A DNA stretch of 64,000 nucleotides from Reichenbachiella sp. 5M10 (lineage in GTDB: Bacteria; Bacteroidota; Bacteroidia; Cytophagales; Cyclobacteriaceae): assembly GCF_002742335.1 (NCBI RefSeq), contig NZ_MDGR01000007.1, positions 62,001 through 126,000 on the forward strand, given 5' to 3'. A program made the position numbers and the translations under genes. Below, one piece after another: positions 37,740 through 54,734 of the stretch. The notes beneath the pieces were generated by a model. That model had not been told where the DNA came from, searched no databases, and saw only the letters and a list, made by a program, of their open reading frames with translations. Position 1 is the first letter of the stretch. Each line of letters begins with the position of its first letter.

Positions 37740-40700
37740 TTATTCTTTGATCAATCGACGGACTAGTCGGTCCTTCGAAGTGTGAACTTCTATGATGTAT
37801 ACTCCTTGAGGCAATTCACTAACATCGTATTGTGCCTGTGGCGTAGTGTAGTACTTCAATGCATGTCCACTCACGTCACGAATTGTCAACTGCTGAATGT
37901 CCTTTTCTGAGACACTAAATGTAGTTGTGACAGGGTTTGGATATAGGATAAGCGCAGCTGGCTCATCGTCTATGGACAAGGTTGTACAATCTATAATTAC
38001 CTCTTGCGTTTGATGCGTCACGTTACCCGATCCGTCAGTAAATGTCCAGGTCACAGTCGTAGAAGCCGTGATCGGGAAAGTCGCACCGTTCGTTGCGCTG
38101 ATTGTGCCTGAGCAATTGTCAGTCGCTGTAGGTACAGTTAAGTCAGCCGCAGTTATTGCGCACTCTCCATTGACAGTGGTCAGAGTGGTCGCGTCTGCTA
38201 CAGGAGCGGTGGTGTCAGAGATGACTACCTCTTGTGTTTGAGTCGCCATGTTACCCGATCCGTCAGTATATGTCCAGGTCACAGTCGTAGAAGCTGTGAT
38301 CGGGAAAGTCGCATCGGCTGTTCCACTGATGACACCTGAGCAGTTGTCAGTCGCTGTAGGTACAGTCAAGTCAGCCTCAGCAACTGAGCATTCTCCCGTG
38401 ACAGTCGTCAAAGTAGCCGCATCAGCAACCGGAGCAGTGGTGTCCTCGATAGTCACCGTTTGTGTTTGCGTAGCTGTGTTGCCACTTCCATCAGTAAATG
38501 TCCAAGTCACAGTCGTAGAAGCGGTGATTGGGAAAGTCACATCAGTGGTTGCGTTGATAGCACCTGAGCAATTGTCAGTCGCCGTAGGCACCGTCAAGTC
38601 AGCTGCAGTTATAGCGCACTGGCCATTGACCGCCGTGAGAGTGGTCACGTCTGCTACGGGTGCGGTGGTGTCAGAGATGACTACTTCCTGCGTCTGCGTA
38701 GCTGTGTTGCCACTTCCATCAGTAAATGTCCAAGTCACGGTCGTAGAAGCGGTGATCGGAAATGTCGCATCGCTGGCTCCATTGATAGTACCTGAGCAAT
38801 TGTCAGTAGCTGTAGGCACCGTCAAGTCAGCTGCAGCTATAGCGCACTGGCCATTGACTGCCGTGAGAGTGGTCACGTCTGCTACGGGTGCGGTGGTGTC
38901 AGAGATGACTACTTCCTGCGTTTGCGTAGCTGTGTTGCCACTTCCATCAGTAAATGACCAAGTCACAGTCGTAGAAGCCGTGATCGGGAATGTAGCATCG
39001 GTCGTCCCATTGATAGTACCCGAGCAATTGTCAGTAGCTGTAGGTATCGTCAGGTCAGCCTCTGCTACAGCACACTGCGCATTGACAGCAGTCAAAGTAG
39101 TCGCATCAGCTACTGGGGCTGTCACGTCTGCGAAAACGACCTCTTGCGTTTGCGTACTTGTATTGCCGTTGGCATCACTGTATACCCAAGTCACTATTGT
39201 TGTACTTGTAATCGGGAAGGTCGTTTCAGTAGTGGCAGTGATCACACCGGTACAGTTGTCTGTAGCAGTAGGAGCAATCAATGTTTCTACTTCACCACAC
39301 TCGATATTTACAACGGCAAGTGTCATTACATCAGCAACGGGAGACTCACTATCGGTGATTGTCACTTGTTGGGTTTGCGTCGAGCTGTTGCCTTCACTGT
39401 CCGTGAATGTCCATGTGATCTCAGTACTTGCATAGACAGGGAATGTGGTGTCTGAGACACCCGTGATGGTTTCATCGTTCTCGGCATCATAGGCAGTCGG
39501 CAGTACAGTCGGCATATCTACGCTACAAGCACCTACTAAGTCGTCCAACTCTTCGGCGACCGTAGGGGGGCAGTTTTGCTCATCGCCATCGAAGCTCCAT
39601 ACATAGCCAATGCCTAGTGTCGCTCTTGGGTTTCCGTCACAATAGTACAACCCCTCAACACCTAGACTGATATTCGACGGGATGAGTGTTTCTCCTGCCT
39701 CGGTATCCAGTGTCGACCAACCAGCTAGGGTGAGATCATAATTTTGGACGGAAAGTCCAGAATAATCAAGCATTTCTTCCATGTTTAGAACCGAGCTAAT
39801 GTCCCAATGGCCCAAACTTTGATCGAAGGAAGAAGCTCGGTAAAACATGCTTTCCATGTTTTCCACCTGACTCACATCCCAGTTGCTCAGATCTCCATTG
39901 AAAGAAGACGCGTAATAAAACATGTCGCTCATGTCAGTGACGTTGGACAAGTTAGGCGCATCTGTAGCGTTGTATACCATGTTTTCGGTGTACCTAAATG
40001 CAGACTCCATGGTTTCCCATTCGATATCCCCCCATTGTTCGATACTCATCAAGAATTCTCCTCCGGGTCCATTTGAGGCATTTAAGCCAGGAAATTGGCC
40101 GTAGATAGATACCGTGTAGATGCCTGCAGTGGCATAGCTATGTATAGGGAAGGAGTTTTTGGTGTAGAGAGTATTGTCTACTGTGCCATCGCCCCAATCT
40201 ACAATAAAGTTAAAAGGAGAATCTGTATTCGTATTGATTGGAATAAAAACAAAATTGCTAAACCCGAAATCATCGATGGTTTGCCAGGTCGTGACGAATG
40301 GTCGTCCGACAAATACATATTGCTCCTGCGTCGCGGTACTACCGTCCGTTGCGGTATAATTCCAGACGATAGTCTGTGGTTCGGTGATTGGGAATATGGT
40401 CTCTGTTGTTGCGGTGATAGCTTCTCCATCGCAAGTCGTAGCAGTCGGTGCGTCTATTGTCTCTATAGACTCTTTACTGATTACACTAGCCAAGTTGTTG
40501 GTGTTGGGTACTATTCCGTTTTCGGCTTCACCGTCCCCGTCAATAGTCCAAGAGTATGTATCTATGAGGATATTTCTGTCCGTATCGTCACAATAGCGCA
40601 GCCCTTCTGCTCCTAAATAGATATCAGTAGGCACACTTGTCTCTCCGTTGTCTGTATCCAGTGTAGACCAACCTGCCATGGTCTGCTGATAATTTTGTGC

Positions 40701-43283
40701 AGACAATCCTGTACCACTCAACATTTCTTCCATGTCCTCGATACTGCTGATGTCCCAATTCCCAAGGTTTTGATTGAAGGATGAGGCGCCATAGAACATA
40801 TCGTCCATGTATTCGATTTGACTCACATCCCAGTTGCTCAAATCAGCATTGAAAGAAGTTAAGCCATAAAACATACCCGAAAGGTCCGTGATATATGAAA
40901 GATCAGGTGTGTCAGTGGCATTGTAGACCATCTTCGTGGCTCCTTCAAACATGTAGCTCAGATCATCCCATTGGATATCTCCCCATTGATCTATGCTCAC
41001 CAATTTGTCAGGAGAGTAGCTGTCGTAGGCATAAAAATATGGAAACTGCCCATACACAGAAACCGTATAGGTCCCAGCAGTCGCGTAACTGTGCACCGCA
41101 TCGACATCTTCAGAGTATATTGTTTCGTCTACAGTGCCATCTCCCCAGTCTACCACGAAGTTAAAATCCTCGTCGTATCCAGGGATATATACTACATTGT
41201 TCTGCCCTTCCAAATTGTCAATTGTTTCCCATGTGGTGACAAAAGGCCTTCCTGCAAAAACATATTGCTCTTGGGTCGTGGTGTTGCCTCCAGTAGCGGT
41301 GTAAGTCCAAGTGATGGTCTGTGGAGAAGTGATTGGTAAGACTGCATCTGTGGTCGCAGTGATGATCTCTCCATCACAAGCAGTCGCCGTAGGCGCTACT
41401 AAGCTCTCAAGGCTGTTTTTGCCTATGACTGTAGATAAAAATTTGGCATCTGGCACGATACCTCCGTCGGCCTCTTGATCACCTGAAATATTCCAAGAGT
41501 AGTTGTTGTTTAGCGTAGAGCGGCTTGTGGCATCACAGTAGATCAGTCCATAGGGTGATGGATACTGATTCGTTGGAATCTTCGTTTCTCCTCCCTCAGT
41601 ATCCAATGTTGCCCAGCCAGCCAGTGTCTGGTCATAGTGAGGAGTAGAAAACCCAGAGTAGCTGAGCATGCTTGACATTTGCGTCACCGAACTGATATCC
41701 CAGTTGGCTAGGCTCTGATCAAATGAAGACGCTCTGTAAAACATGTACGACATGTTGGTCACGTGACTGACGTCCCATGCACTAAGATCACTGTTGAAAG
41801 AGTTGGCGTAGTAGAACATGTGACGCATCTCAGTCACATGACTCACATCCCATGCACTGAGATCTCCTGTAAAGCCCGTAGCATTGTTGAACATACCGTA
41901 CATGTCTGTTACCTGTGTGAGGTTAGGTACGTCTGTCGCATTACAAACCATGTTTGATAGGTTGGCAAATGCACTATTCATTGATTTCCACTCGATATCC
42001 CCCCATTGTTCGATTGTCATGAACTTGGATCTGTCAAATGCGGAACTTGATGAGATAGCTGGAAAATCACCATATACCGCAATGGTATAAGTTCCCTCTG
42101 AGGCATACTCGTGAATTGCCTGGTTAGCTTTCGTGTAGATGGTATTGTCTGTACTGCCATCGCCCCAGTCTACCTTATAGCTATAATTATAAATCAATCC
42201 GCTGTTGATTGGAATTCTAACGACATTTTGGACATCTATGAAATTGGCTGTTTCCCATGTGGTAACGAAGGGTCTACCTACCCAAATTTCTTGTTCTTGG
42301 GTTCTACTAGCTCCGCTTGTCGACGTATATGTCCATGTGATGGTCTGTGCTTCACTGATTGGAAATGTTGCATCTGTCGTAGCAGTGATTGCCTCTCCAT
42401 CACATGTCTCTGCGGTGGGAGGGGCTAAACTTGTGATAGGCTCTTGACTGATGATGTATTCTAAACTTGCATTGTGCAGTATAATCCCTTGTTCTACAGG
42501 CGCATCCCCGTTGAGGGTCCAACCATAAGTGCCTGCTAGCAAGGTCCTAGAAGAATTGTCACAGTAGCGGAGTCCTTGAGCACCAAATGTAACGCCTGTG
42601 GGTATACTGGTTTCATCTGTGTCTAGTGTGGACCACCCTGCTAGTGTCTGCTCGTAGTTGTCAACAGAGAGATTTGTGCCATAGAGCATTTGGCTCATGT
42701 TGGTCACATGACTAATGTCCCAAGCACCCAGATCCGCATCCAGTGATGAAGCTCCCTGAAACATCCCAGACATGTCCGTCACAGCAGACAAGTTCGGTGC
42801 GTCAGTGGCATTGATCTGCAAATTGGTAGTATTTGCGAATGCGTAGCTCATCGTCCGCCAAGGGATATCTCCCCATTGTTCGATACTGAGCAAGTTAGAA
42901 CTGCTACCATTGGGCATGAGTATGGCGTCAAAAAAACCACTGATTTGTACTTCGTAAATCCCTGGTTCGGCATAGGTATGATTGGCGTCATTTGCTACGT
43001 GTGTATCGACAGAGCCATCACCCCAGTCCACCGTGTAATCCAAATTGTATGTGTTGGAATTCCACGGAATTTTGATGGATTGATTAGAACTTGTCGTCTC
43101 CCAAGTCGTGATGAAAGGGCGATCCTGCGCCTGAGCCAATCCTGCAATAAGCATGAGCAGCATGGCGATTAGCACTGTCTTGGTTTTGAGAGATAGGATA
43201 AAGCGCCACCTTGAGACGGCAGATGACTCGGCAAGAACTGCACTGAGTCGGTGGAATAGGGAAGTAAAAAATTGTATAATCAT
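37740..43283 (-). CDS. Giant BspA-like (DUF285) repeat surface protein with T9SS sorting domain
   Basis: A 1847-residue secreted or surface protein. An unusually long N-terminal stretch precedes the signal core (KTKTVLIAMLLMLIAGLAQAQ). Four large modules follow, beginning near residues 53, 335, 678 and 992 (each RPF[IV]TTW). Each has a PKD-like VDWGDG[ST]VD strand, several DUF285 units (NMSxMFxxAxSFxxDLSxWDVSxV) and a CDGEAITATTD HYR-like end. From about 1236 come seven HYR-like repeats of about 76 residues (PTATDNCSG...TWTFTDGSGNTATQTQEV). The last 75 residues are a type A T9SS sorting domain (LILYPNPVTTTFSVSE to LVRRLIKE). Likely an adhesin. It follows the histidine kinase gene on the same strand by 131 bp. 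Confidence 0.88.
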   Translation of the reverse strand: MIIQFFTSLFHRLSAVLAESSAVSRWRFILSLKTKTVLIAMLLMLIAGLAQAQDRPFITTWETTSSNQSIKIPWNSNTYNLDYTVDWGDGSVDTHVANDANHTYAEPGIYEVQISGFFDAILMPNGSSSNLLSIEQWGDIPWRTMSYAFANTTNLQINATDAPNLSAVTDMSGMFQGASSLDADLGAWDISHVTNMSQMLYGTNLSVDNYEQTLAGWSTLDTDETSIPTGVTFGAQGLRYCDNSSRTLLAGTYGWTLNGDAPVEQGIILHNASLEYIISQEPITSLAPPTAETCDGEAITATTDATFPISEAQTITWTYTSTSGASRTQEQEIWVGRPFVTTWETANFIDVQNVVRIPINSGLIYNYSYKVDWGDGSTDNTIYTKANQAIHEYASEGTYTIAVYGDFPAISSSSAFDRSKFMTIEQWGDIEWKSMNSAFANLSNMVCNATDVPNLTQVTDMYGMFNNATGFTGDLSAWDVSHVTEMRHMFYYANSFNSDLSAWDVSHVTNMSYMFYRASSFDQSLANWDISSVTQMSSMLSYSGFSTPHYDQTLAGWATLDTEGGETKIPTNQYPSPYGLIYCDATSRSTLNNNYSWNISGDQEADGGIVPDAKFLSTVIGKNSLESLVAPTATACDGEIITATTDAVLPITSPQTITWTYTATGGNTTTQEQYVFAGRPFVTTWETIDNLEGQNNVVYIPGYDEDFNFVVDWGDGTVDETIYSEDVDAVHSYATAGTYTVSVYGQFPYFYAYDSYSPDKLVSIDQWGDIQWDDLSYMFEGATKMVYNATDTPDLSYITDLSGMFYGLTSFNADLSNWDVSQIEYMDDMFYGASSFNQNLGNWDISSIEDMEEMLSGTGLSAQNYQQTMAGWSTLDTDNGETSVPTDIYLGAEGLRYCDDTDRNILIDTYSWTIDGDGEAENGIVPNTNNLASVISKESIETIDAPTATTCDGEAITATTETIFPITEPQTIVWNYTATDGSTATQEQYVFVGRPFVTTWQTIDDFGFSNFVFIPINTNTDSPFNFIVDWGDGTVDNTLYTKNSFPIHSYATAGIYTVSIYGQFPGLNASNGPGGEFLMSIEQWGDIEWETMESAFRYTENMVYNATDAPNLSNVTDMSDMFYYASSFNGDLSNWDVSQVENMESMFYRASSFDQSLGHWDISSVLNMEEMLDYSGLSVQNYDLTLAGWSTLDTEAGETLIPSNISLGVEGLYYCDGNPRATLGIGYVWSFDGDEQNCPPTVAEELDDLVGACSVDMPTVLPTAYDAENDETITGVSDTTFPVYASTEITWTFTDSEGNSSTQTQQVTITDSESPVADVMTLAVVNIECGEVETLIAPTATDNCTGVITATTETTFPITSTTIVTWVYSDANGNTSTQTQEVVFADVTAPVADATTLTAVNAQCAVAEADLTIPTATDNCSGTINGTTDATFPITASTTVTWSFTDGSGNTATQTQEVVISDTTAPVADVTTLTAVNGQCAIAAADLTVPTATDNCSGTINGASDATFPITASTTVTWTFTDGSGNTATQTQEVVISDTTAPVADVTTLTAVNGQCAITAADLTVPTATDNCSGAINATTDVTFPITASTTVTWTFTDGSGNTATQTQTVTIEDTTAPVADAATLTTVTGECSVAEADLTVPTATDNCSGVISGTADATFPITASTTVTWTYTDGSGNMATQTQEVVISDTTAPVADATTLTTVNGECAITAADLTVPTATDNCSGTISATNGATFPITASTTVTWTFTDGSGNVTHQTQEVIIDCTTLSIDDEPAALILYPNPVTTTFSVSEKDIQQLTIRDVSGHALKYYTTPQAQYDVSELPQGVYIIEVHTSKDRLVRRLIKE
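37985..39115 (-). repeat. Five near-identical 228-bp tandem repeats
   Basis: Within the giant surface protein gene, repeats 3 to 7 of the HYR-like series are 76 codons (228 bp) each and highly similar at DNA level. For instance the TGCGGTGGTGTC block recurs at 38661 and 38889, exactly 228 bp apart. Two further, diverged copies lie upstream in the gene (to about 39575). Such repeats can gain or lose units by recombination. Confidence 0.85.
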
Positions 43284-43285
43284 CG

Positions 43286-43313
43286 ATTCACGGTTTTATT
43301 ATCAACCGTGAAT
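43286..43313 (-). promoter_or_regulatory. Hairpin abutting the start codon of the giant surface protein
   Basis: On the minus strand ATTCACGGTT, an 8-nt loop and AACCGTGAAT form a perfect 10-bp stem that ends two bases before the ATG at 43283. It covers the place where a ribosome binds, so it could limit translation or serve as a protein-binding site. Confidence 0.6.
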
Positions 43314-43349
43314 TTCTTCAATCCAAAACCCCTACTTTGATGACCTATA

Positions 43350-43396
43350 CATGAGTTGCTCAAATCCCTTCATGAGTAGTTCAAATTGCTACATGA
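43350..43396. promoter_or_regulatory. 21-bp-spaced direct repeats, candidate LytTR response-regulator site
   Basis: CATGAGTTGCTCAAAT (43350-43365) and CATGAGTAGTTCAAAT (43371-43386) share 14 of 16 bases. A third CATGA begins at 43392, again 21 bp on. LytTR regulators (AgrA, AlgR and others) are known to bind pairs of short direct repeats about 21-22 bp apart. The repeats lie 67-103 bp upstream of the giant surface protein start, next to genes for a LytTR system. Confidence 0.6.
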
Positions 43397-43414
43397 AACC
43401 GATGGCTGAGTTCC

Positions 43415-45469
43415 TTATTGTTCGTGCAAGATGCTTGTTTTCACCAGTTCTAAGGAGAAACTGACTGAGGAGCCTTCATGGACCGTCACGTTGAGTTGAC
43501 TGCCATGTATTTCTACAAATTTTCGACAGAGTATCAGTCCGAGTCCTGTGCCTTTTTCTCCGTCGGTACCAGTTGCGCTGGCGTTGAGACTTTCTTCCAT
43601 TATTCGATTTTTTGCCTCTTCGCTCATCCCGATTCCTGTATCTCGGACCTGGACAATCAACTGATCCGACTGTGACTCAATAGCAATTGTTACTTGCCCA
43701 TAGCGTGGAGTGAATTTGATGGCATTGCTCAGTAAATTGCGCAATACTGTGCCTATCATATTGATGTCCGCATGTACCCAGACGCCATCTTCTTCATAGG
43801 TCGAGTCGACGATCAATTCTATCTCTTTGGCGCGAGCACTGGGGGCAAATATTGTCACTGCATCATCTATCAGTAGCTGTAGATTGACTTCCTGTGGTTG
43901 GTAGGGCAAGGTCCCGAGTTGATTCAGTGTCCATTTGAGTAAGTTGTCTAGCAGGTGATTGACTTTGTCTGCAGATTTGTCTACTTGTTCTATCAGTTGG
44001 TTTACCTTTTGAGTGTCGCCCTTTTTCATTTGGTAGTGGAGCATGCGTCCAATCCCCTGAAAGGACGTCAGAGGCCCTCGGATATCGTGAGCGATCAGAG
44101 CAAAGAATTTGTCCTTCATTTTGTTACTTTCCATCAGCTCATTTTGAGAGGCGTTCAATTTTTTGTTGATATCCGTGATGAGTAGATTTCTTTTGTCCAG
44201 CGCCTTTTTGGTTTTCCGGGTTTGGACGAAACCATAGAGGAATCCTCCACAGGCGAGTAGGGCAGCTCCAGACAAGAGGCCTAGCAGCAGTTTGTACTTT
44301 CGCTCTTGTGCCAAATCCAAAGCGGTCAATTGATTTTGCTGCTGCAGTGTGAGGATTTCATTCTCTTTCTTTTCGGTTTCGTATTGTTCTTGCAGTGCCA
44401 GTTTGGTTTGATGGATCTCCACACCTGACAAACTATCCTTTAGGGTTTTAAATTTTTTGTATGCAGCAAGAGCCAAGTCATACTCTTCAAAGGATTCATA
44501 GGCTTCAGACTCAATTCTATAGACCATGACCATGGTGTGCCATGCATCGTATTTTTCACCGATTTCTTTGGCACGATCCAAGTGATGCATCGAGAGATTT
44601 CTGTTGTGCAGTTGGGCATAGGCCGAAGCAAGGTTGGCATGTGATTCGATCGAAATCAATTCATCGTTGCGCTGCTGTTCCATAGTCAAGCCTTTTTGTT
44701 GGTACTCTATGGCTTTTTCAAACAGCCCCTGCATGAGGTAGACAGAGGCCATGTTGCCATAGCTGTAGGCTTCCAAGTCTGTCCAGCCTCCTGATTTTGA
44801 CATCTCGATAGTCTTTTCATAATAATACAACGCACTATCCGCAATCGGTAGGCCTGAGTAGGAGTTGCCCAAGCCCAAATAGGACAACGCCTCTCCACGT
44901 TGATCTCCTGAGGCACGATGATATGCCAAGCTTTTTCTATGGTACTCGATAGATTTTTCTATGTCCCCCATTTCATATAGGGTAGAGGCCATATTGGCCA
45001 AGGTGCTGGCATACAAGCCTTGATGTATCTGAGGATCTATCAAGCGCAGCGATTGGTAAAACAAGACTATGGATTCATCAAACCGACCAAACTGGCTCAG
45101 GGCGAAGGCTTTTTGTTCCAGCCCTTCTGCTACGAGGATCTTGTCGTCGATCATCTCACTGAGTCGAATACCCTCATCGATCAGAACGATCGCTTCGGCA
45201 GCACTTTTGCTCGTGATGATGGGTGCAGCGACATCATAGTAGAAATCGATCAATGTCGCCTCTGATTGCTTGGTCTCATAGAGCCATTCAAAGTGAGTCG
45301 ACCAATCTGTCTTGTCCGATTCGGCATAGAGTACATTGATCAAGGAATCCAGCAGCAGTTGGTCGTCTATTTGATGTGCAGCGACCATTTGTCTGAGGAT
45401 AGGAGACTGGGCATAGAGGGAGCCAGAGAGGGTGAGGCAGAGGGCCAAGAGTGAAAGTCTGATTTGCAT
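43415..45469 (-). CDS. TPR sensor histidine kinase
   Basis: A 684-residue membrane kinase. Signal peptide (LSGSLYAQ), periplasmic TPR repeats from about 30 to 370, one transmembrane helix (LLLGLLSGAALLACGGFLYGF), a coiled coil, a HisKA-type H-box (FFALIAHDIRGPLTSFQGIG) with the phosphorylated His, and an ATPase domain with NLLSNAIKFTP (N box), VRDTGIGMSEE and GEKGTGLGLILCRKF (G boxes). The 3' end contains no receiver. The response regulator gene lies 53 bp upstream on the same strand and is the likely partner, although LytTR regulators more often pair with LytS-type kinases. The giant surface protein gene follows. Confidence 0.9.
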   Translation of the reverse strand: MQIRLSLLALCLTLSGSLYAQSPILRQMVAAHQIDDQLLLDSLINVLYAESDKTDWSTHFEWLYETKQSEATLIDFYYDVAAPIITSKSAAEAIVLIDEGIRLSEMIDDKILVAEGLEQKAFALSQFGRFDESIVLFYQSLRLIDPQIHQGLYASTLANMASTLYEMGDIEKSIEYHRKSLAYHRASGDQRGEALSYLGLGNSYSGLPIADSALYYYEKTIEMSKSGGWTDLEAYSYGNMASVYLMQGLFEKAIEYQQKGLTMEQQRNDELISIESHANLASAYAQLHNRNLSMHHLDRAKEIGEKYDAWHTMVMVYRIESEAYESFEEYDLALAAYKKFKTLKDSLSGVEIHQTKLALQEQYETEKKENEILTLQQQNQLTALDLAQERKYKLLLGLLSGAALLACGGFLYGFVQTRKTKKALDKRNLLITDINKKLNASQNELMESNKMKDKFFALIAHDIRGPLTSFQGIGRMLHYQMKKGDTQKVNQLIEQVDKSADKVNHLLDNLLKWTLNQLGTLPYQPQEVNLQLLIDDAVTIFAPSARAKEIELIVDSTYEEDGVWVHADINMIGTVLRNLLSNAIKFTPRYGQVTIAIESQSDQLIVQVRDTGIGMSEEAKNRIMEESLNASATGTDGEKGTGLGLILCRKFVEIHGSQLNVTVHEGSSVSFSLELVKTSILHEQ

Positions 45470-45522: not shown

Positions 45523-46275
45523 TCAGTGGAGCATTTGTAGCCTTTGGTACAAAACTGTTTTGTAACTGCGGCCAAAAGGGATTTCTTGACCTCCTACCGT
45601 GATCATGAAATCCGCTTCTTCTATGCTGTCAATTCGGTCTATATTGACCACAAACGCGCGATGTATTCTCAAAAACAGTTTGGGGTCGAGTTGCTGCTCT
45701 AATGATTTGAGAGACATACGTAGGTGGTACTGATGTGCAGTGGTGATGACTTGACAGTATCGCTCATCCGCCAGTTCGATCCACAGGATGTCTTGGATCT
45801 GTACTTTTTCGAGTTTGCTACCTCTCTTGAGGAAAAAACTGTCTCGGATGATCACATCTGTGTTCCACTCGGCAGGCGAGTGAGTAGCAGGGCTGTCTTG
45901 TTGGCTAAACTTGCGAATAGCAAGTTCGATGGCTGCTTGCAGATTGCCACGTTCGACGGGTTTGATGAGGTAGGCATAGGGAGCTGTCTCCATGGCTTGA
46001 TTCATCGTTTCTTTGTCGTCAAACGATGTGACAAACAAGAACGGAGTAGGGTGAGTATGCTGTATTTTTTGGGCGATATGTATGCCGTTGTTTGCGTTTT
46101 TGAGCGCAATATCCAATACAACGACATCAGGCTTCAGCACTTTGATGTTTCGAAGCAGATCCATCTCATTGTCATGAATACCGATACAATCGTACCCCAT
46201 TTCATCGAGTAGCATTTCCATTTTGGTTGCGTGAGTCAAGTCATCCTCAGCAACGAGTACCTTCAATTTGGCCAT
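45523..46275 (-). CDS. LytTR-family response regulator
   Basis: Cytoplasmic two-component regulator of about 250 residues. Receiver domain at the N-terminus (MAKLKVLVAEDD acidic pocket, phospho-acceptor Asp in VVVLDIALK, conserved Lys in AYLIKPV) and a C-terminal LytTR DNA-binding domain (DILWIELADERYCQV, FLRIHRAFVVNIDRIDSIE, IPFGRSYKTVL). I start at ATG 46275 since the open frame to 46347 adds 24 residues before the receiver core. First gene of the run response regulator, kinase, giant surface protein. In the 275-bp gap upstream (46276-46550) I see no gene or clear promoter. Confidence 0.92.
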   Translation of the reverse strand: MAKLKVLVAEDDLTHATKMEMLLDEMGYDCIGIHDNEMDLLRNIKVLKPDVVVLDIALKNANNGIHIAQKIQHTHPTPFLFVTSFDDKETMNQAMETAPYAYLIKPVERGNLQAAIELAIRKFSQQDSPATHSPAEWNTDVIIRDSFFLKRGSKLEKVQIQDILWIELADERYCQVITTAHQYHLRMSLKSLEQQLDPKLFLRIHRAFVVNIDRIDSIEEADFMITVGGQEIPFGRSYKTVLYQRLQMLH

Positions 46276-48438: not shown

Positions 48439-51400
48439 ATGATTAAACATTACAAAACACGAGTAAGGGCTTTGCTTGGGGTGAAGTTCGGCTCTGGACA
48501 GGACGAGGAGCCTGGATTGATGCCTTCACGAGGGGTGTCAGTTAGGCGCGGATGGCACAAAGGTGTGCTCACGCTCTGGATAGTACTGATGGGGGTTGCC
48601 AGCCAAGTGCAGGCACAGGTAGCCATATCAGGAAAGGTACAGGATCAGGTAGATGGATCTCCACTACCTGGTGTCACGGTCTTGATGGAAGGAAAATCAG
48701 GAGGGACTGTGACCGATTTTGATGGAAACTTTAAGTTGGAAGCGGAAAAAGGAGATGTACTCATCTTTTCTTTCATTGGTTATTTGAGTCAGAGTGTCAC
48801 TGTAGGCAGTCAGACGGTGATCGATGTGAGTTTGGAGCAGGATTCCAAACAGCTCGACGAAGTAGTGGTGACTGCACTTGGTATAGAGAGAGAAACCAAG
48901 TCTTTGGGCTACTCTGTGAGTCAAGTCGATGGAGAAAATCTCTCAATGGCCAAGGAGGTCAATGTGGTCAATTCCCTTTCGGGAAAAGTCGCAGGTGTAG
49001 ATGTCAATCTTTCGACCGCCGGACCGACGGGATCATCGAGTGTGACGATTCGAGGAAAGGCTTCTTTGGGAGGATCAAATGAACCGTTGTATGTAATAGA
49101 CGGTGTACCTATGGACAATCGCTCGCAAAGTGAAGGGGCCGGACAATGGGGAGGATATGATTTGGGCGATGGTGTGTCTAGCTTGAACTCTGACGATATC
49201 GAGTCTGTATCCGTACTGAAGGGACCATCTGCAGCAGCACTGTATGGATCGAGAGCTTCCAATGGCGTCATCTTGATCACGACCAAACAGGGAAGAAAAA
49301 GAAACGGTATCGGCGTAGAGTTTACCAGCAACGCGACGTTCGAAAAAGTCAGTGCCAAGTTTGATGACTACCAGACTGTATACGGACAAGGTCGGGACGG
49401 GCAGATACCAGATGAGGACGATGCGCAAAACACGTCTCAGTCTGCTTGGGGGGCTAAAATGGACCCTAATTTGATGATTCCGATATACAACGGGCAGTTG
49501 AAACCATATGGGGTAGTAGAGGACAATATTTTGGATTTTTTTAGGACGGGTTCTACCTTTACCAATACAGTCGCACTGACGGGAGGCAATGAAATCGCTA
49601 ACATGCGTGTGTCGGTTTCGGACATGAGAAACAACGACATTATCCCTGGATCTGAGATGTCTCGAAACACGTTTTTGATCAACGGGTCGCTCAAATTGGC
49701 GGATCGTCTGACCATAACGAGTAAGGTCAACTATATACGCGAATCAGCGACTAATCGCCCAGCATTGTCCGACAACCCAAACAACGTAGGACTATCCCTC
49801 ATCGGTCTAGCACCTAGCTTTGATCAAAAATGGCTGTCAGAAGATTACAAAGATGATGAGGGCAGGTATGTCGACTGGAATGGCGGCAATATCTACCGGA
49901 TCAACCCATACTGGTCGACACGCGAGATATCAAATGAGTCTTCGAGAGATCGTATCATTGGATACTTGCAAGTGGATTACAAATTGACCGATTGGTTGAA
50001 TTTGAATTTGCGTGGAGGTACTGATTTTTATCAGTCTAGATTCACCAATTTCTCACCTGTTAGCACGCCTACATTGGAAACAGGTAGTTTGACTGAGCAG
50101 AGTAGGTTTAATCGCGAGGACAACTACCAAGCGATGCTCGAAGTGCACAAGGATTTCAACGGTGGATTTTCTCTGTCATCTTATGTCGGGGGCAATATCA
50201 TGACGTACAACGTAGAATCCTTCACTCAATCGGGTACTGGAATCATCCTTGAGGATGTTCAGACTATTCAGAATTTCCTGCAGGTCAACAACGGCTATTC
50301 GAATATCCGAAAGCAAATCAACTCACTCTTTGGAGCGGTACAGTTAGGGTACAAGGGTACCTATTTTTTGGATGCGACGCTTCGAAACGACTGGTCCTCT
50401 GCCTTGGATCCTGATTACAATTCATACCTCTACCCATCCGTCTCGGGGAGTTTTGTGTTTTCTAATTTGCTAGAGGGGAGCAAGTTCCTGTCTTTTGGCA
50501 AGTTGAGAGCTTCGTACGCGGAGGTCGGTGGAGATACAGAACCGTATCGTTTGAGTCAAAACTATGGAGTAAAAGACTTTTCGTTGCTAGGCAAACCACT
50601 CGGAGAGCTGTCAGGAGTAGAATTGGCTAAGGTGGATTTGAAGCCGACACGGACCTATTCGTACGAAGTAGGGGCAGACATTCGTTTTTTTCAAGATAGA
50701 TTGAGGTTGGACGCAGCGTACTACTATCAGTTGACAAGGGATCAGATTTTGACACTCAACATCCCCGCAACGAGTGGGTACGACATAGCAGTCATCAATG
50801 CGGGAGAGATTCTCAACCAAGGAGTCGAAATCCAAATGGCTGCCACACCGATTCAGGTAGGCGATTTCCAGTGGAATGTGACGGTGAACTTTGCGAAGAA
50901 TGTCAATTCTATCCCTGTGCTACACCCTGAGTCAGACACGTATTTGCTATCCAATGCAAGGTGGGCCAATGCGGCGATCGTGGCGACCGAAGGAGGCAAG
51001 TATGGAGACATCGTAGGCAAGAAATGGTTAAGAGATCCTGACGGAAATATCGTACACAATGCCGCAGGACTACCGGTACTCGATGATGAGGCAGGACAGC
51101 AGGTTTTGGGCAACGGTCAGTACGAATTCACTACGGGTATTATCAATGATTTCTCCTACAAAGGATTCACTCTACGTGCTTTGATAGATTACAAGTCCGG
51201 GGCTGATGTGTACTCGATGAGTAGTGGTTTGGCATATGCCAATGGTACGTCTAAACATACGCTCGAAGGGAGAGACGAATGGTATGATTCGGAAGAGGCT
51301 CGGCTCGCTGCTGGAGTGACAGATATCGCAGCTTGGACGCCTACGGGAGGATATGTCGGCGAGGGTGTCAAAAACACAGGAACTACTGACAACCCTGTAT

Positions 51401-51723
51401 ATGAGACCAATGATATTCCTACCAACCCCCAAAATTACTGGGGGAGTTTGTATACTCAATCACCGGAGTTGTTCATCTATGACGCATCCTATGTCAAGTT
51501 GAGAGAATTGGTGATTCGCTATGATTTTCCTAAAAAGTGGTTGGGCAATGTCTTGACGGCAGGATCGATCTCTTTCGTAGGTCGAAACCTCTGGCTGATC
51601 TACAGCAATGTGCCCAATGTAGACCCTGAATCAGGCTATAACAACAGCAACGGCCAAGGGTTTGAATATGGGTCGATTCCTTCCAGACGAAGCTATGGTG
51701 TCAACCTAAGCTTGAAGTTTTAA
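48439..51723 (+). CDS. SusC-like TonB-dependent transporter (chitin locus)
   Basis: Outer-membrane oligosaccharide importer of 1094 residues. A long N-terminal stretch precedes the signal core (TLWIVLMGVASQVQAQ). Then a carboxypeptidase-like domain (AISGKVQDQVDGSPLPGVTV), the SusC junction QLDEVVVTALGIERETKSLG, plug motif SSVTIRGKASLGGSNEPLYV and a beta-barrel ending in SRRSYGVNLSLKF. ATG 48520 is an alternative start that would shorten the n-region. It is followed 19 bp later by its SusD. The downstream GH18 and GH20 enzymes suggest chito-oligosaccharides as cargo. Confidence 0.92.
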   Translation: MIKHYKTRVRALLGVKFGSGQDEEPGLMPSRGVSVRRGWHKGVLTLWIVLMGVASQVQAQVAISGKVQDQVDGSPLPGVTVLMEGKSGGTVTDFDGNFKLEAEKGDVLIFSFIGYLSQSVTVGSQTVIDVSLEQDSKQLDEVVVTALGIERETKSLGYSVSQVDGENLSMAKEVNVVNSLSGKVAGVDVNLSTAGPTGSSSVTIRGKASLGGSNEPLYVIDGVPMDNRSQSEGAGQWGGYDLGDGVSSLNSDDIESVSVLKGPSAAALYGSRASNGVILITTKQGRKRNGIGVEFTSNATFEKVSAKFDDYQTVYGQGRDGQIPDEDDAQNTSQSAWGAKMDPNLMIPIYNGQLKPYGVVEDNILDFFRTGSTFTNTVALTGGNEIANMRVSVSDMRNNDIIPGSEMSRNTFLINGSLKLADRLTITSKVNYIRESATNRPALSDNPNNVGLSLIGLAPSFDQKWLSEDYKDDEGRYVDWNGGNIYRINPYWSTREISNESSRDRIIGYLQVDYKLTDWLNLNLRGGTDFYQSRFTNFSPVSTPTLETGSLTEQSRFNREDNYQAMLEVHKDFNGGFSLSSYVGGNIMTYNVESFTQSGTGIILEDVQTIQNFLQVNNGYSNIRKQINSLFGAVQLGYKGTYFLDATLRNDWSSALDPDYNSYLYPSVSGSFVFSNLLEGSKFLSFGKLRASYAEVGGDTEPYRLSQNYGVKDFSLLGKPLGELSGVELAKVDLKPTRTYSYEVGADIRFFQDRLRLDAAYYYQLTRDQILTLNIPATSGYDIAVINAGEILNQGVEIQMAATPIQVGDFQWNVTVNFAKNVNSIPVLHPESDTYLLSNARWANAAIVATEGGKYGDIVGKKWLRDPDGNIVHNAAGLPVLDDEAGQQVLGNGQYEFTTGIINDFSYKGFTLRALIDYKSGADVYSMSSGLAYANGTSKHTLEGRDEWYDSEEARLAAGVTDIAAWTPTGGYVGEGVKNTGTTDNPVYETNDIPTNPQNYWGSLYTQSPELFIYDASYVKLRELVIRYDFPKKWLGNVLTAGSISFVGRNLWLIYSNVPNVDPESGYNNSNGQGFEYGSIPSRRSYGVNLSLKF

Positions 51724-51742
51724 TCACTAAATAAGAAACCAG

Positions 51743-53341
51743 ATGAAGACTTTCATAAAGAACAACATATATATCATCGCGCTGATTATGACGGTAGGTT
51801 TTGCTGCCTGTGATGATTTTGAGGAGATGAATCAGAATCCTACCACGTCGACGGACATGGACCCTAACCTCATGCTGCCGACGATACAGATGCAGCTATC
51901 TGGGGAGCGCTACGAGACATGGAGAAACAGTTTCATCTATGCCTCAGATTGGATGCAACTATGGACAGGCGAGTACGCGACGGTGGAGATTGGCGGAAAA
52001 GGTCAAAAGAACGATACCTACATGAGTGCTCTTTGGGATAGAGAGTATTCGCGCGAAGTACGAAACATCACGGACATGGTGGAGCGAACCAAAGACAGTC
52101 CAGAACAAGTCAATATCAACGCGGTCTCACGGATCATGAGGGTGTTGATCTTTCATCGATTGACAGATTTGTATGGAGATTTACCCTATTTCACAGCGGG
52201 TAAAGGATATTTCGAGGGGGTGCTTAAGCCGACTTACGATACCCAAGAGGATATTTACAATGATTTTTTTGCGGAGTTGGAGTTGGCTACTACCGCTTTG
52301 GACCCTAGTGCAGATCAGGTGACCCAAGACTTTTACTTTGAGGGCAACATTGCACAATGGAAAAAGTTTGGGAATTCGCTGCGATTAAAATTAGCCATGA
52401 GACTGGTCAAAGTGAATGCCGCCAAAGCACAGAGCGAGGCTGAGGCTGCCATCGCTGGAGGAGTCATGGAAAGCAATGCCGACATGGCGATCATGTATCA
52501 CAACAATGCACCATTCAACGGCGGAGGTATGGGGGGCAATGGTACTTCGTACACCTTCATGTCTGCATCGCCTGATGTGAGTAGTTTCAGAATCTGTACG
52601 ACACTCGCTGAGCAGCTGGAGTCTACAGGTGACCCTCGCATTACTCTCATGGCTGGTAGCTACCTGGACAACAAAGACCGTACGGATGTGAGCCAAGAGG
52701 TATACGACGAGATTGGTAGCTATACAGACTTATCAGTATTGCCGAGCAATTTTATCTGGCAAGCGGCGGGCGGTACGATAGAGGTAGATATAGATGGGGC
52801 ACCCACTGAGGTGACAGGCCCGTTGCAATTGCTACAGCCTGCAAAAGCACTGACAGCTATCGATGCGCCTTTCATCATGATGAGTTATGCTGAGGTCAAA
52901 CTGTTGATGGCGGAGGCGGCCTTTAGAGGGTGGTCTGCTGGTGGTGATGCTGCGACGCATTATGCGGAAGCACTCGCAGCAGGGGTGATGCAGTACGATG
53001 CGTATGGTATCGAACTGCCGGATCAAGGCACGATCGATGCATTCGTAGCGGCCAATCCTTTGGGCGCAGGTACAGAGCTCGAGGATATCAATACGCAGCT
53101 TTGGGTCAACTTTGCTTTCAACCCCATGGAGGCGTATAGCAACTGGAGGAGATCAGGCTTCCCTGCACTCGCGTATCCAAACGTCGACCCAGGGATCAAC
53201 CAGACCAACGGGACGATTCCTCGCAGGATGCAGTATCCGATCAACGAGTACTTGCTCAATGAAGCCAATTTGCTAGAAGCGGTAGATCGCCTCGATGGTG
53301 GAGACGATTGGACCTCACGTGTATGGTGGGATGTCCAGTAG
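51743..53341 (+). CDS. SusD-like lipoprotein (chitin locus)
   Basis: Surface lipoprotein partner of SusC. Signal ending in MTVGFAACDDFEEMNQNP, typical of the SusD-like group that begins with an F-x-x-M-N-x-N-P motif (SusD-like_2 type). Residues around 130-150 (SRIMRVLIFHRLTDLYGDLPY) form the conserved helix pair. Near the C-terminus, WVNFAFNPMEAYSNWRRSGFP is also typical. 532 residues. Located between SusC and the GH18-like lipoprotein in one operon. Confidence 0.9.
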   Translation: MKTFIKNNIYIIALIMTVGFAACDDFEEMNQNPTTSTDMDPNLMLPTIQMQLSGERYETWRNSFIYASDWMQLWTGEYATVEIGGKGQKNDTYMSALWDREYSREVRNITDMVERTKDSPEQVNINAVSRIMRVLIFHRLTDLYGDLPYFTAGKGYFEGVLKPTYDTQEDIYNDFFAELELATTALDPSADQVTQDFYFEGNIAQWKKFGNSLRLKLAMRLVKVNAAKAQSEAEAAIAGGVMESNADMAIMYHNNAPFNGGGMGGNGTSYTFMSASPDVSSFRICTTLAEQLESTGDPRITLMAGSYLDNKDRTDVSQEVYDEIGSYTDLSVLPSNFIWQAAGGTIEVDIDGAPTEVTGPLQLLQPAKALTAIDAPFIMMSYAEVKLLMAEAAFRGWSAGGDAATHYAEALAAGVMQYDAYGIELPDQGTIDAFVAANPLGAGTELEDINTQLWVNFAFNPMEAYSNWRRSGFPALAYPNVDPGINQTNGTIPRRMQYPINEYLLNEANLLEAVDRLDGGDDWTSRVWWDVQ

Positions 53342-53375
53342 TCCGGTGCTTATGTCAACTAAAAAATTGAACCAA

Positions 53376-54734
53376 ATGAAAAATTATAGATTTATAAAGG
53401 AAGCATTTCTACTGATGGTCATCGTCTCGATGTTCGTCAGTTGTGCGGAGGAAGTAGAGAACCCGAGCTTTGATTCGGACGAATTGCCGAGGATATTTGG
53501 CTGGGAGCAGCTCTACGGTACCAATATCGAAGACTCACTAAAGATCGCCGTGCAGGTATCTCCGAGCGATGGGGTGACCTACAGCTGGACACTCGATGGA
53601 GTAGAGGTTTCTACTGAGCCTACTTTTGAGTATCTCTTTGATGATCCCAAAACCTACGAAGTGCATCTAGCTATCGAGCGAAATGGTGTGCCCAATACCC
53701 GGACAGCTACTGTCGAAGTGAACCAGCCTTTTGTCCCGAAGGACTATGCCAAAATGATGGTTGGCTTCCTCACGAGTGCTGGGTCGATTTCGGATGTTGA
53801 TTTCAGTAGCTTGACGCACTTGGTGATCTCATCTGCCGTGGTGGATGAAGTGGCATTTCCTGAGACCATCGTGGATACGACATTCGCAGATGCGATGAAT
53901 ATCCCACAGATCGTGCAGTCTGCGCACAATGCAGGTGTGTATGTCATGCTGGACGTGACGGATGATATGGCAGCCATCACTGGTGGAGGTCTGTATGGAG
54001 ATGTGACCTTCTTTGACGCGGTAGCAGACGCAGACAAGCGTGCTAAGGTCTTGGAAACGATCATGAAGTTTGCGGTGGACAATCAGCTGGATGGAGTTAA
54101 TTTCTATCTTAACGATACTTGGGGAGGGCCAGGTAGTTTGGATGCTGCTGCGATTGGTGCATTCTATGCAGCGGTACCGGATTATTTGCCCGAAGGGCCA
54201 GGGCCTGACGGAGAGTTCTTTTATTCCGTGTCTGTACCGGGCGGTTGGACGACTAGTTTGTTGAGTCCATTGGCGGCAGTAGAGCGCATCGATTGGGTGA
54301 ATATACAACCTTATCGATATGAAGATTTGTCTCCGACATCACACTCGCCAGGTTGGGCTTTTACCAGTCTAGCGGATACTTGGATAGGTTTGGGGGTTCC
54401 CGCAGAGAAGATTGTAGGCGGGTTTCCAGCTTTCGGACTGAAGTACGACATGCCTACAGACGGCACGGTCGTCGGCTGGGGCAACTTGTGGATGTTTGCC
54501 ACTTACCATACTTACAAAGAGATTTTATCGATGGATGCGGAAGCGTATAGTAAAAACATGCTCAGCGTAGACGATGGTTTATTCTACGATGGACACCCAG
54601 CGGTGACCGAAAAGGCCAACGCAGTACTCTCTCAAGGGTATGGAGGGATGATGATGTGGAGCATCGAGAGCGACACCAAAGACCCTGAAACCTCCTTGTT
54701 GAAAGCAGCATATTCAGCATTAGGTAATAATTAG
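53376..54734 (+). CDS. Catalytically dead GH18-like surface glycan-binding lipoprotein
   Basis: Lipoprotein (VIVSMFVSCAEE) of about 452 residues: a PKD/Ig-like domain (to about 125, VQVSPSDGVTYSWTLDGVEV) followed by a GH18-type barrel (AKMMVGFLTSAGSISDVDFSSLTHLVISSAVVDE). At the catalytic strand DxxDxDxE is replaced: Asp239 is kept but Asn242, Tyr244 and Asn246 stand where Asp, Asp and the acid Glu belong (LDGVNFYLND). It is therefore very unlikely to hydrolyse chitin and probably binds it. I start at ATG 53376 because the longer frame overlaps SusD. It precedes an active GH18 and follows SusD, the usual place for a surface glycan-binding protein. Confidence 0.85.
   Translation: MKNYRFIKEAFLLMVIVSMFVSCAEEVENPSFDSDELPRIFGWEQLYGTNIEDSLKIAVQVSPSDGVTYSWTLDGVEVSTEPTFEYLFDDPKTYEVHLAIERNGVPNTRTATVEVNQPFVPKDYAKMMVGFLTSAGSISDVDFSSLTHLVISSAVVDEVAFPETIVDTTFADAMNIPQIVQSAHNAGVYVMLDVTDDMAAITGGGLYGDVTFFDAVADADKRAKVLETIMKFAVDNQLDGVNFYLNDTWGGPGSLDAAAIGAFYAAVPDYLPEGPGPDGEFFYSVSVPGGWTTSLLSPLAAVERIDWVNIQPYRYEDLSPTSHSPGWAFTSLADTWIGLGVPAEKIVGGFPAFGLKYDMPTDGTVVGWGNLWMFATYHTYKEILSMDAEAYSKNMLSVDDGLFYDGHPAVTEKANAVLSQGYGGMMMWSIESDTKDPETSLLKAAYSALGNN

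Follow-up and report, generated by a model that had tools for sequence, protein, structure and literature searches.

Transcriptional regulators with a LytTR DNA-binding domain classically recognize pairs of sites about 12 bp apart, as described in PMC6193735, PMC4064291 and PMC4227749, and most LytTR regulators are characterized in PMC11347149 as binding upstream of the -35 element and activating transcription. Triple sites are also described there: RcoM1 is assigned three 8-bp repeats, TTCNNGCA, with a spacing of 12-13 bp, and CoxC, which acts as a repressor from a triple LytTR operator lying across the -35 element, needs all three of its repeats (PMC11347149). In the LytTR regulatory system (LRS), as outlined in PMC6193735, the regulator is paired with an inhibitory membrane protein and there is no kinase.

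We analyzed a 64,000-bp stretch of DNA from Reichenbachiella sp. 5M10 (the window), taken from a genome of 4.64 Mb with 18 LytTR matches. On its minus strand, the gene of a LytTR response regulator is followed by that of a histidine kinase with TPR repeats, a gap of 131 bp and the gene of a secreted protein of 1847 residues (Table 1). The gap carries three direct copies of an 8-bp word, [CT]TCATG[AT]A, separated by 13-bp spacers. Judged from sequence comparison, this array (43348-43397) is probably the operator of the neighboring LytTR regulator, through which the secreted-protein gene would be controlled.

The array resembles the RcoM1 and CoxC operators in having three 8-bp direct repeats with spacers of similar length (12-13 bp there, 13 bp here). 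The likeness extends partly to the word itself, since the RcoM1 word TTCNNGCA is matched in full by TTCACGCA in the Roseivirga group treated below (L117, L122, L123, L129 and L131) and in 6-7 of 8 letters in the window. The proteins differ, however: RcoM and CoxC are described as one-component CO sensors of Proteobacteria, whereas the window regulator consists of a receiver and a LytTR domain only, with no gas-sensing domain fused to the latter, and has an adjacent kinase; targets and phylum also differ. Regulators of the AgrA, ComE, VirR and PlnC types share the receiver-LytTR architecture and have repeats separated by about 12 bp immediately ahead of the promoter that they control, but their sites comprise two units and the window array three. 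The YpdAB and BtsSR systems are like the window pair in combining an adjacent regulator and kinase with what appear to be very few direct targets. Their targets are transporters, and their kinases are membrane proteins of the LytS kind. Unlike in the LRS, the gene adjoining the regulator at the window locus encodes a histidine kinase. The locus has a receiver-LytTR regulator, an adjacent kinase and direct repeats in steps of about 21 bp near the proposed target, as expected of a LytTR two-component system with a direct-repeat operator. Among the matches listed from the open-licence literature, we recognized no LytTR operator mapped in the phylum of the window and no paper describing this triple array.

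Regulator, kinase, effector and repeat array

Table 1. Positions of the genes and repeat elements at the locus, in window coordinates
Feature	Coordinates	Strand	Basis or remark
LytTR response regulator (receiver + LytTR)	45523-46275	-	Pfam Response_reg 4.2e-17, LytTR 2.7e-21
Histidine kinase with TPR repeats	43415-45469	-	Pfam TPR_12, HisKA, HATPase_c
Three half-sites at 21-bp steps, proposed operator	43348-43397	-	Repeat search, cross-genome comparison, shuffles
Half-site 1, TTCATGTA	43390-43397	-	Gap sequence
Half-site 2, CTCATGAA	43369-43376	-	Gap sequence
Half-site 3, CTCATGTA	43348-43355	-	Gap sequence
Inverted repeat, 10-bp arms, 8-bp loop	43286-43313		2 bases before annotated effector start
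1847-aa secreted protein, proposed target gene	37740-43283	-	DUF285, HYR_4C, PKD, type IX sorting tail (Pfam)

The start codon of the regulator was picked from an alignment with 10 relatives, and its phospho-acceptor D55 is invariant in that alignment; the 60 solved-structure matches listed, from a total of 133, are mostly to receiver domains. Read by eye, the kinase has a signal-like N-terminus and one hydrophobic stretch ahead of HisKA, which would place its TPR part probably in the periplasm. The 1847-residue protein ends in a Por_Secre_tail (5.2e-09) and the window genome has an SprA translocon match above the cut-off, which classes the protein as type IX-secreted; its DUF285, HYR and PKD domains suggest a putative adhesin. 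The first 66 coding bases of its gene (43218-43283) are identical to those of the congener G002 at 61/66 positions, and the following 534 bases at 419/534 (ungapped). The real start of the effector may lie further in, or the DNA may carry an additional signal there. Elsewhere in the window, positions 48439-54734 hold a TonB-receptor/SusC-like ORF (SusC-like by eye), a SusD-like protein and a PKD-bearing glycoside hydrolase of family 18, likely a locus for chitin or glycan use.

The initial annotation had reported two 16-bp direct repeats, 14/16 identical and starting 21 bp apart, with a third CATGA a further 21 bp on, in a 131-bp gap near a LytTR response regulator. All of this was confirmed: the repeats lie at 43350-43365 and 43371-43386, the third CATGA starts at 43392, the gap length follows from the ORF ends (last kinase base 43415 on the minus strand, effector start codon 43283), and Pfam recognizes the LytTR domain. 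Its reading of the repeats as a LytTR-type site is supported by the genome comparison below, but the array has three units, to which the third copy belongs; similarly, the 21-bp steps that it regarded as typical of LytTR sites hold, but in size, spacing and word the array is closer to the RcoM/CoxC triplet than to the classical pair. In substance, the proposed connection between regulator and repeats is supported. The activation that it proposed would be the more likely sign of control, and the name adhesin is suggested by the domains.

The 14/16 match between the 16-mers was reached in 0/2000 dinucleotide shuffles of the gap at lag 21 and in 0/2000 at any lag from 16 to 59. Ten-base windows gave weaker results, with 17/500 shuffles reaching the pair at lag 21 and 117/200 at some lag between 11 and 44, and a permissive search across the window (TTCAYGNA pair, at most two mismatches) returned four matches, three of them inside the array, a result equalled by 27/100 shuffles. 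It is therefore the long match, together with conservation, that makes the array significant. Compared by eye with the general LytTR consensus, from which the window half-site seems to deviate in part, plus-strand TACATGAGT agrees at 7/9 positions and the other two copies at 6/9. The last half-site starts 72 bp ahead of the annotated effector start in Reichenbachiella. The gap gave no match to an intrinsic terminator and one to a sigma-70-like site (0.6 expected), and no promoter common to the loci was recognizable among the 15 gaps scanned.

Conservation of the array across genomes

The nearest relative in the set, G001, has a regulator 77% identical to that of the window, and G002 one that is 66% identical. 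Both congeners have a gap of 131 bp and the same gene order, and in both the array is kept; loss of the repeats from a kept kinase-adhesin order, which the initial annotation had named as evidence against its proposal, was thus not seen. Compared with G002, 23/24 half-site bases are kept versus 18/26 spacer bases (Fisher p 0.024), and compared with G001 the counts are 23/24 and 26/26. The regulator was not found at E <=1e-48 in the five other congeners. DUF285 proteins matching the start region of the effector occur in 7/8 congeners, including ones without the regulator. A BLAST search with the gap across 8 congeners recovered the three orthologous loci, the remaining matches having E values of 0.05 or worse.

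A survey of the family covered 295 genomes, 24 of which have the regulator at E <=1e-48. Seven genomes proved to carry the orthologous pair of LytTR regulator and kinase, and the array directly after the kinase is clear in six. In G195, G094, G202 and G183, regulator and kinase are ordered as in the window, with copies of the window word at 21-bp steps after the kinase; the lag-21 match was reached by 0/500 shuffles in G094, 3/500 in G195, 25/500 in G202 and 135/500 in G183, whose array is therefore rated weak. These four genomes share only word and step with the window array, and the spacers differ. By locus, L113, L114 and L115 have the array after the orthologous pair, and L116 has a weak one. 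Behind it stands a Laminin_G_3 protein with SprB repeats in L114-L116, and in L113 a 209-aa ORF with no Pfam match followed by an 808-aa ricin-type lectin protein, so that the secreted proteins after the pair in the seven genomes are of three unrelated kinds (DUF285/HYR, Laminin_G/SprB and ricin-type lectin). In a tree of 66, the seven regulators group together as a single clade (support 100/99). The pair is patchily distributed, being present in 3/8 genomes of the window's genus, 3/6 of that of G094 and 1/19 of that of G195, and no new clade members appeared at the thresholds used among 6 genomes of the G094 genus, 19 of the G195 genus and 390 of the order. Retention of the array after the orthologous pair, ahead of unrelated proteins, ties the repeats to the regulator.

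A second regulator clade was found in the Roseivirga group (the genus of Roseivirga sp. E12, which also holds G195), where TTCACGCA-like units precede giant secreted-protein genes. The gene order there is kinase(s), regulator, a gene of about 290 aa and the giant gene, with an extra 375-aa gene in L130; the sole giant scanned has MBG_2 and Calx-beta domains. Pairs of YTCAYG at lag 21 were counted in 15 target gaps, then 16 with L130 added, and in control gaps, which were the other intergenic gaps of the same loci and rose from 47 to 51 for the same reason. In L113, L115 and L118 the gap was ended at a start codon downstream of the first one given by the ORF tool, and L126, L125 (contig end), L133, L135, L254 and L251 were left out of the targets. 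Exact pairs were present in 8/16 target gaps versus 0/51 controls, pairs with one mismatch in 12/16 versus 2/51, and pairs with two mismatches in 14/16 versus 7/51, counts to be read with YTCAYG having been chosen after the gaps had been seen and with related gaps not being independent. At one mismatch, the lag profile showed 12/16 at 21, 11/16 at 42 and at most 3/16 at every other lag from 10 to 60. L118 and L123 have a lag-21 pair at two mismatches only, and L119 and L124 have none even then. Six of the seven control gaps positive at two mismatches flank the regulator gene and so may hold further sites. Loose pairs in such regulator-flanking gaps lie in L118 (4949-5021), L131 (5786-6027), L117 (5763-5851), L122 (5703-5812), L124 (4800-4915) and L129 (2682-2780), and are possibly additional or autoregulatory sites of the Roseivirga group.

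L126 has a lag-21 TTCACG pair before a 357-aa ORF, with no giant gene directly after it; L251 has a TTTATG/CTTATG pair at the same lag before a 1491-aa ORF, with opposite-strand ORFs in between; and L259 has a lag-21 YTYAYG pair ahead of a 523-aa ORF. From these pairs, the array type may extend past the two clades. In L133, L135 and L254, a giant gene stands near a related regulator and no lag-21 pair was found. Three Reichenbachiella genomes (L223, L235, L236) carry a second recurrent module of kinase, LytTR regulator and a protein of about 570 aa, which in L223 combines an alpha/beta-hydrolase with an AraC-type HTH; a giant DUF285-matching ORF comes next in L223 and L235, and DUF285-matching ORFs lie farther along in L236. 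In G003 (L234, 2335-2737), a 1971-aa ORF comes after another LytTR regulator, and the gap has a direct repeat at 20-bp steps (ATTGCAAC.GAGTAC-like), not 21.

Over 12 whole genomes, TCATGWA-N14-TCATGWA gave 25 matches versus 8 for the reversed control. Ten of these (both strands counted) fell in the gap that comes behind the orthologous pair and covered 6/7 clade genomes, with G183 missed, and the window genome had matches only in the kinase-effector gap; among the other 15, 14 overlap ORFs of at least 80 aa and one (L194) lies outside. The looser CTCATG-N15-CTCATG matched five times in the window genome, once in the gap and four times elsewhere, with one match for the control. Its match in G004 (L097) was set aside as lying at the start of a thymidylate-synthase-like ORF (named by eye), together with that in G005, which has the identical sequence. 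Gaps after other LytTR regulators of the window genome with giant genes nearby (L218, L223, L233) contained no pair even at two mismatches, nor did the 280 bp ahead of the window regulator. By these searches, which weaker sites would escape, the 1847-aa gene is probably the only direct target in the window genome.

Inverted repeat and leader hairpins

Between the array and the effector start lies a perfect inverted repeat (arms 43286-43295 and 43304-43313), which falls within the coordinates of the initial annotation and is absent from its text. It is kept at 28/28 bases in G001 and 27/28 in G002, where the stretch from the array to the inverted repeat is kept at 21/34. The arms read TTCACG, which resembles the word used by the operators of the sister clade, and the distance to the last half-site is 43 bp; the element could for that reason be a second operator; it could also be a translation lock, or something ordinary. 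The window effector leader folds with a z of -3.5, and start-codon hairpins are strong in G000, G001, L115 and L116, those of L115 and L116 pairing the start codon with z values of about -5. The G002 hairpin scored -3.65 on a short stretch and -1.23 on a longer one, the folding comparison gave no leader hairpin in L114, and three non-target genes among 23 starts had stronger scores than the targets compared with them. Hairpins at the start codon were therefore not taken as common to the targets.

Readings of the array and the proposed switch

The same site and binder could serve repression, with the third half-site covering the -33 element and polymerase blocked as in CoxC until the signal relieves it. 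This has the precedent of CoxC itself and the geometry of G002, where, counted from the first base of the third half-site, a -7-like TAGTTTTG begins 22 bp on and would put the -33 element over that half-site. However, the -7 match (TAnnTTTG) occurs only in G002, the other 14 gaps being without it save for a looser one far downstream in L116, and PMC11347149 describes most LytTR regulators as activators with sites upstream of -35; we consider repression somewhat unlikely. From the position of the array, control is markedly more likely to be upward than downward.

That the array serves some other DNA-binding protein and stands beside the LytTR system by chance is quite improbable. Units on one face of the helix would suit several kinds of protein, and TTCATGAA is its own reverse complement, but the array tracks the orthologous regulator-kinase pair across genera, ahead of unrelated genes, and its size and spacing are those of the known LytTR triplets (PMC11347149). 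In the Roseivirga group, moreover, it is mostly regulator-flanking gaps that match loosely among the controls. A functionless array, arisen by chance or as a decayed tandem duplication, would account for two 21-bp units that are 76% alike in the window genome and for the ease with which shuffles yield ten-base matches at some lag. This origin is scarcely credible given the 16-mer match that the shuffles never reached, half-sites kept while spacers change, and other genomes sharing word and step with different spacers.

With the array as operator of the adjacent regulator, the TPR kinase, its sensor part probably periplasmic, would read a cue and, as expected from its family, phosphorylate the regulator. 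Up to three LytTR domains would then fill half-sites two helical turns apart on one face of the helix, and the occupied array upstream of the effector gene would control its transcription.

The array is associated with the regulator-kinase pair, not with any particular downstream protein family, and on the genomic evidence pair and array thus behave like a cassette. Across the seven genomes, its effector slot is occupied by secreted proteins of at least three unrelated kinds. A bolder version is unlikely to hold in full: a portable cassette of TPR kinase, LytTR regulator and triple operator, whose giant adhesive or carbohydrate-binding effectors were swapped in evolution, with leader hairpins adjoining the start codon, or pairing with it, as a second, translational lock. 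In that version, a periplasmic TPR domain might sense how far the current effector has been exported, or what ligand it has bound. The TTCAYGNA triple array at 21-bp steps is short and concrete, and lets targets of the regulator clade be predicted. What stands out most is that effectors change while regulator and operator are retained together, and such an arrangement would be a natural example of a portable switch for surface proteins that are costly and leave the cell by type IX secretion.
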